Origin: an uncultured Lachnospiraceae bacterium
GTDB taxonomy: Bacteria > Bacillota > Clostridia > Lachnospirales > Lachnospiraceae
NCBI GenBank assembly: GCA_946536155.1
Contig: CAMNEB010000005.1
Coordinates: forward strand, 1 to 42,213
Reading direction: 5' to 3'
Length of the DNA: 42,213 nucleotides
This document shows, in pieces, positions 1,884 to 10,390 of the stretch. Numbering within the stretch: position 1 is the first letter of the stretch; each line of letters opens with the position of its first letter. A program made the position numbers and the translations under genes. A model generated the notes under the pieces. That model was not told the origin of the DNA. It made no database searches and saw only the letters and a list, made by a program, of their open reading frames with translations.

Positions 1884-2585
1884 ATGAGAATAGCTGTCTG
1901 CGATGATGAGGAAAGATTCAGATCGGATATACAGAGTCATATCGATAAACTGTACGGAAGCCTTGACGTCATCGTGGACAGCTTTTCCGACGGAAGGGAC
2001 CTGATACACAGGTTCGAAGAAAAACCGTATGATGCGGTTTTTCTTGATATTGAGATGCCTCAGATGGACGGCATAACTCTTGCCAGAAAACTCAGAGAAA
2101 TAAGCGACAGCGTCTTCATCATCTTCCTCACAGGGCACGTGGAATATGCCCTTGAAGGGTACGAGGTCAATGCCCTCAGGTATCTCACCAAGCCGGTCAA
2201 CGAAGATAAACTGAAGGAAGTCCTTAAGTTTATCTCGGACAGGATGTCCGACAGGCGGCAGATCAGGATCAAAACCGATGGTGAAGAATTATTCATAGAT
2301 GTGAAGGATATAATCTATCTGGAAGCACAGAACCAGTACGTTATGATCTACACTGCGGATAACAGCTATCTTGTCAGATATAATCTTTCTGATTATGAAA
2401 AGCAGCTCAAAAAGGACGGTTTCTTCAAGGTCCACAGAAGCTATCTTGTATCCCTTTCCAAGGTCAAAAAGCTGGGAAAGGGCGAAGTCTTCATGGAGGG
2501 GGATATATCGGTTCCCGTCAGCAGGAGCGCTGCTTCAGAGCTTAAGGATGCTCTTTATATGTATCTTGAGAATAATGCTTTTTAA
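1884..2585 (+). CDS. LytTR-family response regulator (AgrA/ComE type)
   Basis: N-terminal receiver domain (VCDDE, FLDIEMPQMDG, TKP) plus LytTR DNA-binding domain (IIYLEAQNQYVMIYT, HRSYLVSLSKV). Confidence 0.9.
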   Translation: MRIAVCDDEERFRSDIQSHIDKLYGSLDVIVDSFSDGRDLIHRFEEKPYDAVFLDIEMPQMDGITLARKLREISDSVFIIFLTGHVEYALEGYEVNALRYLTKPVNEDKLKEVLKFISDRMSDRRQIRIKTDGEELFIDVKDIIYLEAQNQYVMIYTADNSYLVRYNLSDYEKQLKKDGFFKVHRSYLVSLSKVKKLGKGEVFMEGDISVPVSRSAASELKDALYMYLENNAF

Positions 2586-2597
2586 GGATGAACATGT

Positions 2598-4055
2598 ATG
2601 ACTTATGGTGAATTCTTACCTTCGGACATTACTAACCAGATCGTAGTATGGCTCTCATGTATCTGCGAGGGTACGATGGCGATCGGCATGCAGCTTTTCT
2701 TTCTCTGCTTTTTCGGAAAAAAGATCACAATAAAAAAATCTACCGTTATGATCCCTATGATCACTGCATTGTGCTGCATTTTGATATCAGCTTCTTCTAC
2801 GGTCTATTATGTGGTGATGGGGCATCTCCATCCGGATATGATCATTCCCGGAACCGAAGCGGGAATGCCGGATTCCAATCCGCTTTCTCATATACTTGTT
2901 ATTGCTGCTTTTTTTACGGGAATATCCTCATGTTCAAAACGCAGGATACTTAACGGTATTGAGACTGTAATAGGCATATTTGCCTTTGAATTGTATATAC
3001 AGCTCATGATCATGGTCGTGATCGCTTTTTTATCCGATAATATTCATGATTCCTTCGAAGACATGATCAACATAATGGTCAATGAATCAAACCGTCTTTT
3101 CTGGATAATCTATTTCTTAATCTGTTTTTCATCTGTTTTATATGTTTATTTCAGAATTTACAGAAGGCATAATCATATGTATATCAGGGTGGGATACAGA
3201 TTGCTTTTTATTGTCTGGGAGTTTGCTCTGATAGTAGGTATTGTCTCTAATTTTTTCGATGAAAAAAATGAATCTGAACTGATAACAGCAATGGGACAGC
3301 TGATAGGGATCATGTTCCCGATCCTTGCGATAGGCGTTCCTTTCCTGATACTTGTCATAGTATCCAGGAAAAATGAGATCCAGAAAAATGCCATACAGGA
3401 GGAATATATCTCTTCGGAGCTTGATTATATCGGACAATACAAGAAGAACCAGGAGGAGACCAGAAGATTCCGCCACGATATCATCAACAATCTGTCAATG
3501 GTATCGGCTCTTCTGAAAGATGAGAAAAAAGAAGAAGCGGAAAACTATCTTGATGAGCTGCTTGGAAATGTCCGTGGCATGTCACCTAAGTATGTCACCG
3601 GAGACGAGATGCTGGACTGCCTCATAGGAATGAAGGTTACGCGAATGGAGGCATCCGGGATCGGATTTACGCTTGACGGCACATGTGCGGGAGGCCTCGG
3701 AATGAAACCCGTGGATGTCTGCACCGTATTTGCCAATGCTATTGACAATGCCATCGAAGCCTGCGAGAGAATGCCTGAAGGCAGCGGGAAATGGATACGG
3801 TTCGAGCTCAAACAGGCCGGACAGTTCTTTAACATCAGGCTTTCCAATACATATCAGGATGATGATGGGAAAAGGGACAGGCTCAGGGTCTTTGAACCGG
3901 GAAGCAGAAGGACCTCCAAGAAGGATAAGGATCTTCACGGCTATGGTTCCATCAACATAATGAATACCGTTGAGAAGTACAACGGAATGATAAAAGAAGA
4001 GAGCAAAGACTCTGTCTTTACTCTCTCCATAATGCTTCCGAAGAGCAGCACATAA
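2598..4055 (+). CDS. GHKL-domain sensor histidine kinase (AgrC-like)
   Basis: N-terminal multi-TM region; RRFRHDIINNLSMVSALL phosphoacceptor; NAIDNAIEAC N box; HGYGSINIMNTVEKY. Confidence 0.88.
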   Translation: MTYGEFLPSDITNQIVVWLSCICEGTMAIGMQLFFLCFFGKKITIKKSTVMIPMITALCCILISASSTVYYVVMGHLHPDMIIPGTEAGMPDSNPLSHILVIAAFFTGISSCSKRRILNGIETVIGIFAFELYIQLMIMVVIAFLSDNIHDSFEDMINIMVNESNRLFWIIYFLICFSSVLYVYFRIYRRHNHMYIRVGYRLLFIVWEFALIVGIVSNFFDEKNESELITAMGQLIGIMFPILAIGVPFLILVIVSRKNEIQKNAIQEEYISSELDYIGQYKKNQEETRRFRHDIINNLSMVSALLKDEKKEEAENYLDELLGNVRGMSPKYVTGDEMLDCLIGMKVTRMEASGIGFTLDGTCAGGLGMKPVDVCTVFANAIDNAIEACERMPEGSGKWIRFELKQAGQFFNIRLSNTYQDDDGKRDRLRVFEPGSRRTSKKDKDLHGYGSINIMNTVEKYNGMIKEESKDSVFTLSIMLPKSST

Positions 4056-4078
4056 AAGCTGCATATTCTGTTTTGTTT

Positions 4079-4127
4079 TTACATCTCGATCACGATTCCG
4101 TACAACTTACATCGCTATCACGACGCC
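4079..4127 (-). repeat. Degenerate 28-bp-period tandem duplication at the 3' end of the DegV gene
   Basis: On the minus strand GGCGTCGTGATAGCGATGTAA (4127-4107) is followed by GGAATCGTGATCGAGATGTAA (4099-4079), 17/21 identical, both ending with TAA. Confidence 0.45.
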
Positions 4128-4937
4128 GCCGGGATTTTCGTATGAAGTGGAGATCCCTCCGGCGTTTAATATTTTAACGTCGGTGAATCCGAATCTCTCG
4201 GTGAGTATCTTTGCTATCTTAAGGCACAGCTCCTTGCTGTCACACTGAGTGATCCTGACTTTCCTCGAGGGATCGATGCCTGCTTTTTCGATATGATAGA
4301 GCATCCTGTTTATGGCTCTGTTCATTCCGATCGCCTGGTCAATCTGCTTTATCTCACCGTCTTCACCGACGAGTACCGGCTTTACCTTCATAGTAGTTGC
4401 GACCACGGCCTTGATGCCTTTAAGCCTTCCGTTTCTCTTGAATGTCTCGAGATCGTCGAGAACAAATATGGTGAAAACCTCGTCGCGGTATGCCTCAACC
4501 TTTTCAACTGTTTCTTCGAAGGAGCATCCCGCGGCTTCACATTCTAAGATCTTCTCGCAGAGAACATGCTCGCCGGCTGCGGCGCTCTTTGAATCGAATA
4601 CATGAATGCGCACGCCCTCGTGTTCTTCTTCGAACATTTCCTTCGCGACCATTGCGCTGTTGTATACTCCGCTGAGCTTTGATGAGAGAGTTACGACATA
4701 GTTGTCACAATTCTCATCATATGCATTGTAGAAATCATCGGGAGATGGGCATGCCGATTTGGGATATCCGGGATCGTCTTTGATCATGCGAATCCATTCT
4801 TCCTGTGTCTTTCTTCCGTCATCCCTGTACTCAACGCCTCCGATTATCACGGACATGGGTACCCGAACAATATTTCCTTTTCGCATTTCGAGTTTCGTAA
4901 AATCACAGCAGCTGTCGCCTATTATCTTAATAGCCAT
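4107..4937 (-). CDS. DegV family protein (fatty-acid-binding)
   Basis: MAIKIIGDSCCDF start with GGAGG just upstream; SCPSPDDFYNAY, TLSSKLSGVYNSA, RNGRLKG motifs. Start moved from 4976 to 4937. Confidence 0.9.
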   Translation of the reverse strand: MAIKIIGDSCCDFTKLEMRKGNIVRVPMSVIIGGVEYRDDGRKTQEEWIRMIKDDPGYPKSACPSPDDFYNAYDENCDNYVVTLSSKLSGVYNSAMVAKEMFEEEHEGVRIHVFDSKSAAAGEHVLCEKILECEAAGCSFEETVEKVEAYRDEVFTIFVLDDLETFKRNGRLKGIKAVVATTMKVKPVLVGEDGEIKQIDQAIGMNRAINRMLYHIEKAGIDPSRKVRITQCDSKELCLKIAKILTERFGFTDVKILNAGGISTSYENPGGVVIAM

Positions 4938-5051
4938 ATATGCACCTCCGTAAAAAGTACATGACCATTGTACCACCTTTTCATCCGGGATGCCGCCATA
5001 ATAAGAGAACTATAAAAATATGCCGGTGCAGATGAGGTGTAAAATTTTCTG

Positions 5052-5080
5052 TTGACACATCAGGGAGTCTCCCGTATACT
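5052..5080 (+). promoter_or_regulatory. Strong sigma-70-type promoter with dyad in the spacer
   Basis: TTGACA (5052-5057), 17-nt spacer, TATACT (5075-5080); spacer contains the dyad GGGAG-T-CTCCC (5063-5073). Confidence 0.75.
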
Positions 5081-5110
5081 AACGACTAATATTTCGAAAG
5101 CGTGATTTAC

Positions 5111-5224
5111 ATGATCGTACTTAATTCCCAGGCGACAAGAGAATATAAGCATCAGCCCATGTGTGTATACCATGGTTATTCTTATATTGTCTGTGATGAG
5201 GAAGACATACGGATCATGGTCTGA
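5111..5224 (+). CDS. 37-aa leader peptide ORF upstream of ABC exporter
   Basis: ATG at 5111, TGA at 5222-5224: MIVLNSQATREYKHQPMCVYHGYSYIVCDEEDIRIMV. Lies between a strong promoter and a terminator; SD is weak (GAAAG); in-frame GTG at 5102 is an alternative start. Confidence 0.5.
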   Translation: MIVLNSQATREYKHQPMCVYHGYSYIVCDEEDIRIMV

Positions 5225-5244
5225 TACGTTTTTATCTGCTAACT

Positions 5245-5283
5245 ATCCTCATCAGACTGTAACGGTTTGATGAGGATTTTTTT
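5245..5283 (+). terminator. Rho-independent terminator/attenuator before the ABC exporter genes
   Basis: ATCCTCATCA (5245-5254) / TGATGAGGAT (5268-5277), perfect 10-bp stem, 13-nt loop, followed by T run. Confidence 0.85.
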
Positions 5284-5301
5284 ATACACTGAGGAGGGAA
5301 T

Positions 5302-7131
5302 ATGGAAAAGGATAAGAAATTATCTCTAAAACGGACGCTGGATAATGCGTTCTATGCTCTGGGGCTCGGAGCCGGATTCTCCAAACCCATTTTTTTCAAC
5401 ATCATTTTCATCGCGATCCTCGGGTACTTCCAGTGGGTTTTCTTTTCATCGGTATTTATGAAAAAAATAGTCGACAGCCTCGACAGAGGAGAGGACTACA
5501 GGAAGATCCTCGGCTATATAGGAGTGTGCGGCGTTATCGTTGCCTCGATGAATCTGTATCAGCACTATTTTGATAACGTAACACTCCCCATCGAGCTCAC
5601 ACGCCTCTACGGCAAGCTCTACCACATGCTCTTTGACAAGGCAAAAAATGTGGAGCTGCGCTGCTATGAGGATGCGGACTTCTATAACAGATACACCATG
5701 GCGATGGACGGAGCGGATCTGAGGATATCGGATATCATGCGCCGTTTCTGGGGAATGATCTTTGGTACCGTCGCAACGGGATTTGTTTTTTATCTGATGT
5801 TCTCCATCGATAAGTTTGCTGTCATATTCATCATCTGTCCCCTGGTGGGAAATTTTGTGTTCGGCAGCATCAAGAACAAATTTGAACTTAAGCGCTACAA
5901 GGAACAGGTGCCCGGCAACAAGATGATGAACTATGTGAGCCGCGCCATGTACCTTCCCGATTATGCCAAGGAGATGCGCCTCTTCGGAGTATATAATCTT
6001 CTGAAAAAACAGTACTCCGATGCTACGGACAATAACGTAAAAGCCGCATCAAAGTACGCATTTCCCAATGCTTTCGTCAATTTCTGGAAGATCACATTTA
6101 CTTTTTCCGTGATATTTGAAGGAGTCCTTTTCTATGCCATCTACAGGAATCTGGTCACCGGATCCATCTCGCTTGCGGACCTTACCATCATGACCAGTAT
6201 GATGGTGTCCATGACATGGATACTCATCGGACTCTTTGACGATATCGTCAACTTCATGAAGGACGGCGTCTTCATCGATAATCTCAGAGGCTTTCTGGAT
6301 TATAAGGAGACCATCCCCGAGGATTACGACGGAGATATCCCTGAGGGCTTTGATGTCCTTGAGTTTGACGGCGTATCTTTTTCATATACGGATGAAGAGA
6401 CGATAAAGGATCTTTCCTTTACGATAAAAAAAGGCGAGGTCGCGGCTCTTGTCGGACATAACGGTGCGGGCAAGACGACCATCATAAAGCTCCTCTTAAG
6501 ACTCTACGATCCCACAAGCGGAGTGATAAGGCTTAACGGAAGGGATATCAGGGAGTACAACCTTCATGCATACAGGGAACTGTTTGCAACGACCTTCCAG
6601 GATTTTGCGATCATGGGAATGTCCGTTAAGGACAATGTGCTGATGGGACGTCATTACGATGATGAGGATACCATTGTTTCGGATGCTCTGAAAAAGTCCG
6701 GTGTATATGAGAGGATCGGAAAGCTTGAGAAGGGCACGGACACCGTGATGACCAAAGAGTTTGATGAAAACGGAGCTGTCTTTTCCGGAGGTGAGAGCCA
6801 GAAGCTGGCGGTCTCAAGAACCTTCGCAAAGCCCGCACCTGTCAAGATATTCGATGAGCCTTCCAGCGCTCTCGATCCAATTGCGGAATTCGAACTCTTC
6901 AATAACATCGCCAAAGAGGGAAGCGACCATACGCTTCTGTTCATTTCCCACAGGCTTTCCAGCGTAAAGCACTGCGATAAGGTGTTCATGCTGGAAAAGG
7001 GCAGGATCATCGAAGAGGGATCCCATGAAGAACTTATGGCCCGTGACGGAAAATATGCCAAGATGTACCGCCGTCAGGCCAACAACTATCTTGCTATAGA
7101 AGATGAAGAGGGGGGGCTGAGTAATGCCTGA
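5302..7131 (+). CDS. ABC exporter half-transporter (TMD-NBD)
   Basis: N-terminal TMD; Walker A GHNGAGKTT, signature FSGGESQK, Walker B FDEPSSALDP, H-loop FISHRLS; AGGAGGG SD. Confidence 0.92.
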   Translation: MEKDKKLSLKRTLDNAFYALGLGAGFSKPIFFNIIFIAILGYFQWVFFSSVFMKKIVDSLDRGEDYRKILGYIGVCGVIVASMNLYQHYFDNVTLPIELTRLYGKLYHMLFDKAKNVELRCYEDADFYNRYTMAMDGADLRISDIMRRFWGMIFGTVATGFVFYLMFSIDKFAVIFIICPLVGNFVFGSIKNKFELKRYKEQVPGNKMMNYVSRAMYLPDYAKEMRLFGVYNLLKKQYSDATDNNVKAASKYAFPNAFVNFWKITFTFSVIFEGVLFYAIYRNLVTGSISLADLTIMTSMMVSMTWILIGLFDDIVNFMKDGVFIDNLRGFLDYKETIPEDYDGDIPEGFDVLEFDGVSFSYTDEETIKDLSFTIKKGEVAALVGHNGAGKTTIIKLLLRLYDPTSGVIRLNGRDIREYNLHAYRELFATTFQDFAIMGMSVKDNVLMGRHYDDEDTIVSDALKKSGVYERIGKLEKGTDTVMTKEFDENGAVFSGGESQKLAVSRTFAKPAPVKIFDEPSSALDPIAEFELFNNIAKEGSDHTLLFISHRLSSVKHCDKVFMLEKGRIIEEGSHEELMARDGKYAKMYRRQANNYLAIEDEEGGLSNA

Positions 7132-8950
7132 TAAGAAAAAAGAAGGTAAAGACAATACAAAACAGTCACTGAAGCAGGTCATCTCAAACAACCTCTTCCT
7201 GATAAAGCTGTGCTTTTCCGCATCCCCGGCATTTGTCATATTCCCGGTGCTGGATGCGGTGAGAAACCAGGTCTCCATATTTTTCGAGCACACCGTAGGC
7301 ATAGGCTACGTGCTGGAGGCTGCCGAGTTTCATTATCCGTTCAGAAAAGTTGCCGCGGTGATCATCATCCTTTTCATATGTATCTCCATAGGAATGGTCT
7401 TTACAGTCTGGGTCGGAGATTATGTCAGGGCAAAGGAAATGCCCAAGGTCAGCAGAAAGATCAAGCTGATGCTCTACGATAAGGCCGGGGAGCTTGATCT
7501 TGAATGCTATGACAATCCTGATTATTACAACGAGATGGTGCTTGCGATCGCCGAGGTGGACAAGCAGATAGAAAGATGCATACAGTTCCTTTCAAATCTG
7601 TTCGCGGGACTTGCGACCTTCATCACCACCGGCATCTACTTTATGAAGAAGGACGGAATATCGATCCTGTTTGCCATCGGATCGTTCCTCACCACCTTCC
7701 TGTTCATCCAGGCGTATAACAAGCTTTCCTACAAGATCAGGATCGCCAGGAATCCTTACGAGAGAAAGCGCGAGTATGTAAAGAGAGTGTTCTATCTGCC
7801 TGACTGTGCCAAGGAGATGCGCCTTAATCCCGATGTGAGCGATATCCTCTGCAAAGAGTTTGACAAGGCAAATGAAGAGATAACAGATATCGAGAAAAAG
7901 AATGCGAAGAAGCATTTCCTCCTCAGTTATGTCGCAAACTATATCGGAAACGATTTCTTCTGCGATGTCATATACATATCATACCTTGTGCTCAAGGCAA
8001 CGGTGCTGGGAACGCTTTCTTTTTCAAGCGTTGCGATCCTGTACAACTCCTTCGGAAGGATGAAGAGGAGTCTGAGGATATTTACCGACACTTATCCCTT
8101 CGCATGCGAATCGAGCCTTTACGTGCAGAAGATCCGCAACTTCCTTGAATATAAAACGAAGATCGTATCGGAGGAAAACATCATGCCGGACGATGCGGCC
8201 AAGGATGTTGCCGTAAAGGACCTCTCCTTTGCCTATGACAAATCCGGAAACGGTCTGCTCAGGGATATAAACATAAATATAAAACCCGGAGAAAAGATCG
8301 CACTTGTCGGATATAACGGTGCGGGAAAGACTACCTTCGTAAAGCTCCTCATGAGACTCTACGATCCGGACAGCGGATGTATCGAGATGAACGGCCACGA
8401 CATAAAAGCATACAATGTCGCAGCCTTCAGAAGATCCATCGGAGTTGTCTTCCAGGACTTTAAGATATTTGCGGGAACCGTCGCCGAAAACGTCGTTATG
8501 GATAACCTTAAGGGCGATGAGGAAGACCGCATCAGGAAAGCACTGACTGACGGCGGACTCATTAAGAGAGTGGACCGTATGGAGGAGGGGCTTGATACAT
8601 TCCTTACCACGGAGACAAGGGACGACGGCATCAACCTCTCGGGAGGCGAGGCTCAGAAGCTTGCGATCTCCAGAGTCTTCTACCAGAATGCCGGTCTTAT
8701 GATCTTAGACGAGCCTTCCAGTGCACTTGACCCTATCGCGGAGTACCAGCTCAACCATGCGATGCTGACCGCGACCAGGGACAAGACGGTCATATTCATC
8801 TCACACCGTCTCTCCACCACAAGGATCGCAGACCGCATAATAATGCTTGAAAACGGCCGTGTTGTCGAAGAGGGAACACATGACGAACTCTTAAAGCGCG
8901 GCGGCAAATATGCCGGAATGTGGAATGTCCAGGCAGGTGCTTATATGTAA
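7124..8950 (+). CDS. ABC exporter half-transporter (TMD-NBD), partner of preceding gene
   Basis: Overlaps upstream CDS by 8 bp; Walker A GYNGAGKTT, signature LSGGEAQK, Walker B LDEPSSALDP, H-loop FISHRLS. Confidence 0.92.
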   Translation: MPDKKKEGKDNTKQSLKQVISNNLFLIKLCFSASPAFVIFPVLDAVRNQVSIFFEHTVGIGYVLEAAEFHYPFRKVAAVIIILFICISIGMVFTVWVGDYVRAKEMPKVSRKIKLMLYDKAGELDLECYDNPDYYNEMVLAIAEVDKQIERCIQFLSNLFAGLATFITTGIYFMKKDGISILFAIGSFLTTFLFIQAYNKLSYKIRIARNPYERKREYVKRVFYLPDCAKEMRLNPDVSDILCKEFDKANEEITDIEKKNAKKHFLLSYVANYIGNDFFCDVIYISYLVLKATVLGTLSFSSVAILYNSFGRMKRSLRIFTDTYPFACESSLYVQKIRNFLEYKTKIVSEENIMPDDAAKDVAVKDLSFAYDKSGNGLLRDININIKPGEKIALVGYNGAGKTTFVKLLMRLYDPDSGCIEMNGHDIKAYNVAAFRRSIGVVFQDFKIFAGTVAENVVMDNLKGDEEDRIRKALTDGGLIKRVDRMEEGLDTFLTTETRDDGINLSGGEAQKLAISRVFYQNAGLMILDEPSSALDPIAEYQLNHAMLTATRDKTVIFISHRLSTTRIADRIIMLENGRVVEEGTHDELLKRGGKYAGMWNVQAGAYM

Positions 8951-9011
8951 TGATATTCCGCCCATCCACCGATATCCGTCTCCCCAGACAGGAGGAAGAG
9001 CAAAAAAGTAT

Positions 9012-9040
9012 TTGACAAATCGGGATACAATCAATAAAGT
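9012..9040 (+). promoter_or_regulatory. Promoter for pheST leader
   Basis: TTGACA (9012-9017), 17-nt spacer, TAAAGT (9035-9040). Confidence 0.65.
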
Positions 9041-9044
9041 AGTA

Positions 9045-9298
9045 CTGTTAGGTGATGAACGTACGTGAGTACGTAAGAGGCAGTGAAATACAGAGATGGA
9101 GTGTCACCGGCTGAAAGCACTTCACACAAGTCTTACGGAAATTTCAGTACCGGAGCCTTCCGGCGAAAAGCCTGAGCGTTAAACCGGATGATCGTGTAGC
9201 AAACATATTACACGCAGAGTGCATGGCCGTAAGGCTTGTGAAATAGGGTGGTACCGCGGTTATCAATCGTCCCTTGTTTTTGACAGGGGACTTTTTTT
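9045..9298 (+). promoter_or_regulatory. T-box leader (Phe-specific) with terminator
   Basis: Canonical T-box AGGGTGGTACCGCG at 9245-9258; candidate specifier TTC (9143-9145, Phe) followed by A; terminator GTCCC...GGGAC with T run at 9269-9298; directly upstream of pheS. Confidence 0.92.
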
Positions 9299-9352
9299 AT
9301 TGCCAAAACCTACAGTATTGGTCTTAAAAAATGACTGATGAAAGGAGTCGTT

Positions 9353-10390
9353 ATGAAAGATAAGATTGAACAGATTTTATCGGAGGCAAAAGCAAAGATA
9401 ATGGAAGCTACTGCCGAGAGCGAGCTGCAGAAGGTGCGCAGTGATTTCCTCGGCAAGCAGGGAGCACTGGCACTTCTTCTCAAAGAACTGCCTACGGTCG
9501 AGGTGTCCCTCAGACCCGAAATGGGCAAGATCCTCAATCAGGCCAAGGCCAAGGTGACCGAGCTGATCGAGGAAAAGAAGACCGAGCTCAAGCTCAAGGC
9601 ATCCGAGGTATCTCCCGATTTTGACTGCACCGTACCCGGAACAATGCCCGCAAACGGCGGACTTCATCCCATCACCCAGATGTGCTACGACTTAAATGAC
9701 GCATTCCGTTCCATGGGATTTGAAGTATTCCAGGAGGACGATATAACAAGTGAGCTCTATGCATTCGACAAGCTCAATTTCCCTCCCAATCATCCCGCCC
9801 GTGAGAGCATGGATACATACTGGCTGGAGGGACATGACAGCGGTGCTACCAATGAAAAGCTCTGCTTAAGACCTCATCTTACCGGCGGAAGCGTGCGTTA
9901 TATGCAGACACATAAGCCGCCTTACCGATTCGTTTATCCCGGAAGAGTGTACCGTAACGAGACAACGGATGCCCACCACGAGAGAGCTTTCTTCCAGTAT
10001 GAAGCGCTCATCGTCGACAAAGATATCACTTTTACCTCCGGTAAGGTCCTGATACAGAGCATTCTGAGTAAGGTGTTCGGAACCGAAGTTCCCGTCCGTA
10101 TGCGTTCCGGTTTCTTCCCCTTCGTCGAGCCCGGATTTGAGATCGATATGCAGTGCCAGGTCTGCGGCGGAAAAGGCTGCAGCGTTTGCAAGCATGTGGG
10201 CTGGATCGAAGTAATGCCCGGCGGATCTCCTCATCCCAACGTGCTCAGGGCAGCAGGTCTCGACCCCGATGAGTACACAGGATTCTATGTGAACATCGGT
10301 CTCGACAGACTTGTCATGATGCGTTACGGCGTGGATGATGTCCGTCTGTTCCACAGTGCGGATCTCAGATTCCTGTCACAGTTCAGATAA
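9353..10390 (+). CDS. pheS: Phenylalanyl-tRNA synthetase alpha subunit
   Basis: AAAGGAG SD before ATG 9353; motifs HPARESMDTYWL, LRPHLTGGSVRYM, RVYRNETTDAHHERAFFQYEALIVD, GLDRLVMMRYGVDDVRLFHSADLRFLSQF. Confidence 0.96.
   Translation: MKDKIEQILSEAKAKIMEATAESELQKVRSDFLGKQGALALLLKELPTVEVSLRPEMGKILNQAKAKVTELIEEKKTELKLKASEVSPDFDCTVPGTMPANGGLHPITQMCYDLNDAFRSMGFEVFQEDDITSELYAFDKLNFPPNHPARESMDTYWLEGHDSGATNEKLCLRPHLTGGSVRYMQTHKPPYRFVYPGRVYRNETTDAHHERAFFQYEALIVDKDITFTSGKVLIQSILSKVFGTEVPVRMRSGFFPFVEPGFEIDMQCQVCGGKGCSVCKHVGWIEVMPGGSPHPNVLRAAGLDPDEYTGFYVNIGLDRLVMMRYGVDDVRLFHSADLRFLSQFR

Follow-up and report, generated by a model that had tools for sequence, protein, structure and literature searches.

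A leader upstream of an ABC exporter pair is very probably a ribosome-mediated attenuator and has relatives before detoxification-type genes of rumen Lachnospiraceae

The DNA analyzed here, hereafter the window, is a stretch of 42,213 nucleotides from an uncultured Lachnospiraceae bacterium. It contains two overlapping genes for the half-transporters of an ABC exporter (ABC1 and ABC2), preceded by a promoter, a short ORF and an intrinsic terminator (Table 1). A sequence-only reading of the window had proposed that these elements constitute a leader-peptide attenuator of the exporter genes, and the promoter, the 37-codon ORF and the perfect 10-bp terminator (5245-5283) on which it relied are all present, the last as the core of a stem of 15 pairs (5245-5277) that runs into a T-run. 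The Shine-Dalgarno sequence of the leader ORF is weak. The promoter is the top sigma-70-like site within positions 3000-10000, and no further promoter-like site was found on the + strand between it and the first ABC gene, the next one lying at 7557. Given this spacing, and because the gene upstream of the leader, a member of the DegV family, is divergent, the ABC pair most likely depends on the promoter at 5052-5080. Upstream of the DegV gene, the window encodes a LytTR response regulator and GHKL sensor kinase pair (1884-4055), for which no link to the ABC pair was evident.

Table 1. Positions of the leader elements and the exporter genes in the window
Feature	Position	Strand	Basis or remark
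Sigma-70-type promoter TTGACA-17-TATACT	5052-5080	+	11/12 consensus match
Leader ORF, 37 codons, peptide MIVLNSQATREYKHQPMCVYHGYSYIVCDEEDIRIMV	5111-5224	+	Related ORFs in RUG10641 and about 60 family leaders
Segment 1, putative anti-antiterminator TTCCCA, codons 5-7	5125-5130	+	Predicted pairing with 5197-5203 (MFE fold)
Central hairpin AATATAAG/CTTATATT, inner CCATG/CATGG, between segments 1 and 2	5142-5188	+	Folding
Segment 2, antiterminator strand TGATGAGGA	5194-5202	+	Repeats part of the terminator 3' arm
Segment 3, terminator 5' arm; complementary to segment 2 at 5246-5254	5245-5259	+	
Segment 4, terminator 3' arm	5263-5277	+	
T-run completing the intrinsic terminator	5277-5283	+	
Shine-Dalgarno sequence GGAGG of the first ABC gene	5293-5297	+	Read directly in the sequence
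ABC exporter half-transporter 1 (ABC1; MsbA-like; ABC_tran)	5302-7131	+	
ABC exporter half-transporter 2 (ABC2), 8-nt overlap with the first gene	7124-8950	+	

Segment 2 is the exact complement of nine bases in the 5' arm of the terminator (5246-5254), as had been noted from the letters of the window. When the leader is shuffled with its dinucleotides preserved, complementarity of at least nine bases to this arm arises by chance in 0.6% of cases, and in isolation the repeat is only suggestive; its conservation, described below, makes it convincing. A second pairing put forward at the same time, GTCTGAT (5219-5225) with ATCAGAC (5251-5257), can be read in the window but is not conserved: the first strand reads GTCTCAT in the closest relative and bears no resemblance in other leaders, and the match is therefore probably due to chance. 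The sequence-only reading missed segment 1, an anti-antiterminator predicted to sequester segment 2 in the absence of translation. In the window, its pairing with segment 2 is weaker than is usual in the family, with about four of seven pairs possible, or six pairs with a bulge in the minimum free energy structure, and its codon position matches that of the conserved family motif CTC(A/G)TC. The central hairpin has its family counterpart in CCCGTG...CAGGGG, and the window leader taken without its terminator folds with a z score of -2.75.

Searches for related leaders ran outward from the window through a two-leader covariance model, a pattern search, a three-sequence model (R2) and a 39-sequence model (R3), across genomes that are mostly metagenome-assembled. 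The two-leader model, built from the window and the metagenome-assembled Lachnospiraceae genome RUG10641, pointed to a locus in genome G026 with the same antiterminator and terminator, and the pattern search identified G260, a genome of a different genus that carries the same promoter together with a leader ORF encoding MTYSYILNSMPETTMPVNNNYQGLNSVMVDEDMSKCTG and a GNAT gene. R2 matched strongly in several more genera and dozens of times in the genus of G260, which is probably Butyrivibrio, and R3 added leaders in the genus of the window itself. In total, about 75 leader loci were located in Lachnospiraceae genomes, most of them in the genus of G260; the first set of leaders comprised 44 non-redundant peptides. 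The window scores 117.8 bits against R3 (E 2.3e-29 over 0.68 Mb), a value that is not independent as the window is one of the model's 39 sequences. Across 146 genomes of the order, R3 matches beyond Lachnospiraceae were only weak or short and terminator-like. A peptide-profile search of 397 genomes of the family gave a best non-self E of 0.007, which was judged a chance match on inspection; a degenerate pattern for peptide-coding DNA found no match; and DNA searches of plasmids and phages yielded nothing useful. Matches to the pattern in viral contigs (28) were discarded as chance or ordinary phage terminators.

The Rfam 15 covariance models gave no match at E ≤ 1 within 4900-5450 of the window, nor did they match the leaders at eight family loci, one of which contains an unrelated RNA elsewhere. 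As an internal control, the same search recovered the T-box leader before pheS (9046-9277, AGGGTGGTACCGCGG; E 5.7e-17, 76.6 bits, under the Rfam gathering score of 93), the terminator of which lies at 9269-9291. A Skipping-rope RNA (RF02924, E 6.9e-12) was seen near a leader-GNAT locus (L240, 2065-2144, - strand). We found no description of the leader family in the open literature searched. The mechanistic kind of leader is already known (see below), and the sequence family matches none in Rfam.

The genes downstream of the leaders encode GNAT acetyltransferases of several families, SAM methyltransferases, PNP_UDP-type phosphorylases, kinase-like proteins, a nucleotidyltransferase-like protein, an MFS pump distantly resembling Mef(B), the ABC pair, and an asparagine-tRNA ligase-like protein (asnS). 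At one further locus (L165, G028:C46 about 234240), a Thr-rich family leader is followed directly by a group II intron-like sequence in place of the gene seen in G026.

Close relatives of the ABC1 protein occur in many rumen Lachnospiraceae with differing upstream regions, and most ABC orthologues elsewhere lack the leader. RUG10641 (G009; L002 = L101) carries the leader, ABC1 and ABC2 as a cassette between different flanking genes; its leader is 72% identical to that of the window over 5052-5301 and encodes MITLTNSISREYKHQTMCYTHGCYYIVFDEDRSGT. We initially considered that only two species have the leader before the ABC pair, a view dropped when R3 found a third leader (L108), itself truncated at a contig edge, before an ABC1 gene that is 80% identical. 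The peptides of the window and RUG10641 share REYKHQ.MC..HG, with a C-terminus that is not conserved. Between these two genomes, 47% of ABC1 third codon positions have changed and the terminator and antiterminator are almost unchanged. Substitutions at codon positions 1, 2 and 3 number 9, 10 and 10 in the leader ORF vs 52, 46 and 288 in ABC1, and dN/dS is 0.61 for the leader peptide vs 0.045 for ABC1. The even distribution across codon positions indicates that constraint in this pair acts on the RNA rather than the peptide, and the conserved core consists of the hairpin stems and the antiterminator. At two loci with relatives of ABC1 (L011 and L012), a long, near-perfect inverted repeat (GATGACATGGGGACGCTTCATTTTTGTCATC...) that resembles a mobile repeat lies between the promoter and the gene, just upstream of the match at 1501.

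Alignment of the leaders reveals a common anatomy, with four segments in all members. From 5' to 3', the promoter TTGACA-17-TATACT and a downstream ACNACTAA block, both shared by most members, are followed by the ATG, segment 1 (CTC(A/G)TC) at codons 5-7, a spacer of variable length, the central hairpin and, as the ORF nears its end, segment 2 (GATGAGG); the stop codon commonly lies 20 nt further on and precedes segment 3 (CCTCATC), segment 4 (GATGAGG) and a T-run. Across 39 leaders, whose relatedness inflates these statistics, 88.6% of aligned positions are paired for segments 1:2, 98.5% for 2:3 and 95.5% for 3:4, compared with at most 60% when the segments are slid by one to three columns. 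In the shuffle control, 4 of 500 shuffles were as high for 1:2; the control for 2:3 alone was not significant (125 of 500), because the segments hardly vary. Where they do vary, compensatory switches are seen: GATAAGGTC with GACCTTATC in L326 and L329, and GATAGGGTC with GACCTTATC in L108. Compensatory variants of the family motifs read GATAAGG with CCTTATC and GATAGGG with CCTTATC. Attenuation of the ABC pair through a leader ORF, as put forward in the sequence-only reading, is supported by these changes, by the three mutually exclusive pairings being kept in the 39 related leaders, and by the conserved reading frame of the ORF. At a locus before a methyltransferase gene (L331, G005:C39:3869-4073), all terminator and antiterminator arms have been replaced, with AAAAAGTGG facing CCACTTTTT and, to judge by reading, the logic kept.

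Segment 1 is in frame 0 relative to the ATG in 26 of 27 leaders and the central hairpin in all 34, with spacing that is a multiple of three in 21 of 22, and segment 2 is read in two frames across the family (as DED or MR). These patterns suggest translation of the ORF as far as the central hairpin or beyond, and conservation of segment 2 at the RNA level. We had entertained PVNxNQG as a conserved peptide motif; however, its codons (CCC/TCC, GTG, CAG, GGG) are nearly without synonymous variation, and it is better read as the central RNA hairpin.

To examine how a translating ribosome might direct the choice between pairings, we folded transcripts of 38 leaders truncated ahead of segment 4, blocking out a 30-nt ribosome footprint at each codon in turn; such equilibrium folds are only a stand-in for folding during transcription. 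The predicted fraction of segment 2 bound to segment 3 was about 0.99 with the ribosome 23-27 codons upstream of segment 2, 0.00 with the ribosome on segment 2, and a median of 0.01 with no ribosome. Codon-shuffled controls without a ribosome formed the antiterminator with a median of 0.97 (p 1.5e-9), and codon content therefore does not account for the sequestration of segment 2. The window and G260, whose ORF interiors are unrelated, gave the same profile of ribosome positions. RUG10641 and 8 of 37 other leaders had an antiterminator fraction of at least 0.3 by equilibrium folding even without a ribosome; RUG10641 and some members are predicted to be on in that state. The modeled profile suggests that the RNA alone encodes three outcomes: off when untranslated, off when translated smoothly, and on when translation is slow in the first third of the ORF.

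We consider it highly likely that the window leader is a ribosome-mediated transcription attenuator tying expression of the ABC exporter pair to slowed translation. Points against this reading are the low constraint on the window's peptide relative to RUG10641, the weak Shine-Dalgarno sequence of the leader ORF, the weaker segment 1 of the window, the leaders that form the antiterminator without a ribosome, and the many ABC orthologues that have no such leader. RNA synthesis would start shortly past 5080. Without translation of the ORF, segment 1 would pair with segment 2 (5197-5203) and segment 3 with segment 4, and transcription would terminate at about 5283; a ribosome moving without delay would run onto segment 2 while segment 3 emerges, with termination likewise the expected result. 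A ribosome that is slow or stalled on about codons 1-14 would instead block segment 1, leaving segment 2 to pair with segment 3 (5246-5254), which would prevent the terminator and allow polymerase to continue into the exporter genes. That a ribosome stalled early exposes segment 2 had been anticipated before this analysis, and in the simulations ribosomes on these codons do free it. The companion idea that a ribosome finishing the ORF covers 5194-5225 does not hold: at the stop codon, it would reach back only to about 5204, and 5194-5202 would consequently not be covered. In the simulations, 5194-5202 is masked by ribosomes a little further back, within the last third of the ORF. The natural signal may be ribosome inhibition or another translation stress which the exporter relieves.

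Attenuators of the trp and his type display the classical alternative 1:2, 2:3 and 3:4 pairing with an ORF over segment 1, and the present leaders resemble them in both respects. Unlike these, the window leader has no run of a single residue and the downstream genes are not biosynthetic, the leader before asnS (L206) coming closest. As in T-box leaders, a choice between terminator and antiterminator is made ahead of a gene, but a T-box needs no ORF, and the window element has no T-box match. The closer precedent is the vmlR leader of B. subtilis, where experiments have shown that ribosomes stalled by antibiotic on an upstream ORF block an anti-antiterminator, giving readthrough into the resistance gene (PMC9226507). 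The same parts (upstream ORF, anti-antiterminator, antiterminator and terminator) occur here, and by analogy the window leader may follow similar switch logic. It differs in that we recognise no sequence or peptide relation to vmlR, the 37-codon ORF spans both segments 1 and 2, family segments 1 and 3, and 2 and 4, are near-identical repeats, and the leader belongs to a multi-gene family. The bmrB leader of B. subtilis, originally suggested as the precedent, is also a leader upstream of an exporter pair, bmrCD, and has itself been compared with trp (PMC4191407). It is a looser parallel because its terminator lies within the bmrB ORF, whereas the window ORF stops at 5224 and the terminator begins at 5245; the leader sequences are unrelated.

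Other readings of the locus were weighed against ribosome-mediated attenuation. A ligand-binding RNA with the ORF as a mere by-product would explain why the leader folds well without its terminator, why the core shared with RUG10641 is one of stems and antiterminator rather than peptide, and why the CCCGTG...CAGGGG codons are nearly invariant, as expected of RNA structure. We regard such a riboswitch as improbable: the frame is held from the ATG through the central hairpin with spacers that vary by threes, the spacers differ freely in sequence and nothing like a conserved aptamer core is seen, genes of unrelated function share this upstream design, and the Rfam search gave no match. That the element is a plain intrinsic terminator with constant readthrough, beside a chance ORF and repeat, is very improbable; equally good repeats do arise among the shuffles and chance pattern matches among the viral contigs, but the terminator sits between the promoter and the genes it serves, downstream of a divergent gene, and the full four-segment arrangement is kept at dozens of loci across genera. 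The position of a small ORF adjoining an exporter, with GHKL/LytTR two-component genes near, could also indicate that the ORF is not a leader acting in cis and that its peptide is instead a substrate or signal which the ABC pair exports. This we find scarcely credible, given that related ORFs lie ahead of acetyltransferase, methyltransferase and asnS genes where no such exporter follows directly, and that the leader peptide has no recognised secretion or processing motif and no conserved C-terminus.

As to what the attenuator senses, general translation inhibition is predicted to be the likeliest inducer. Starvation for a tRNA is possible, since most family members are Asn-rich: Asn makes up 14.3% of leader residues, and 20-24% in codons 6-23, vs 4.6% in the downstream genes, and its codons AAT and AAC are used 187:34 in leaders vs 441:385 downstream. 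On this account, stalls at particular codons, Asn in most members, would report starvation or inhibition of an aminoacyl-tRNA synthetase. The leader of L206 (1501-1695, - strand), MAFTSMLNNLNNNNNNSVNNNQGI, is half Asn (24 residues) and lies directly before asnS, where the same RNA chassis likely senses charged tRNA and is apparently an Asn sensor; several downstream genes might suit detoxification of synthetase-inhibitor antibiotics. As the general explanation, however, charged-tRNA sensing appears unlikely. The leaders of the window and RUG10641 contain one Asn each and have their shared motif instead, other members in the genus of the window have LTTDMLN, the downstream genes except asnS lie outside amino-acid metabolism, and part of the Asn content reflects the A/T-rich loop of the central hairpin. 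Because the downstream genes resemble defences against toxic compounds, induction by ribosome inhibitors is favored, and for the window, whose leader is not Asn-rich, a general translation signal is preferred. More tentatively, we speculate that one attenuator chassis has been passed around among Lachnospiraceae as a movable regulatory module, set before many unrelated detoxification-type genes, and that swapping of its sensor codons 2-16 adjusts the specificity (Asn runs before asnS, Asn/Thr-rich stretches before acetyltransferases and methyltransferases, and REYKHQ before the ABC exporter), so that its members might each respond to a different translation-targeting compound or tRNA shortage.

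Riboswitch and T-box families were recognised through one design reused before many genes, and peptide-coupled attenuators are usually described gene by gene. Before the exporter of the window, the folding models indicate that slowed ribosomes very probably turn expression on, and what appears from the alignments to be the same switch is found again, in rumen Lachnospiraceae, ahead of many detoxification-type genes that are unrelated to one another. An attenuator family that can be searched with a profile would flag the genes with which rumen and gut Lachnospiraceae counter translation stress, including dozens of acetyltransferases, methyltransferases, phosphorylase-like enzymes and exporters, many of unknown substrate.
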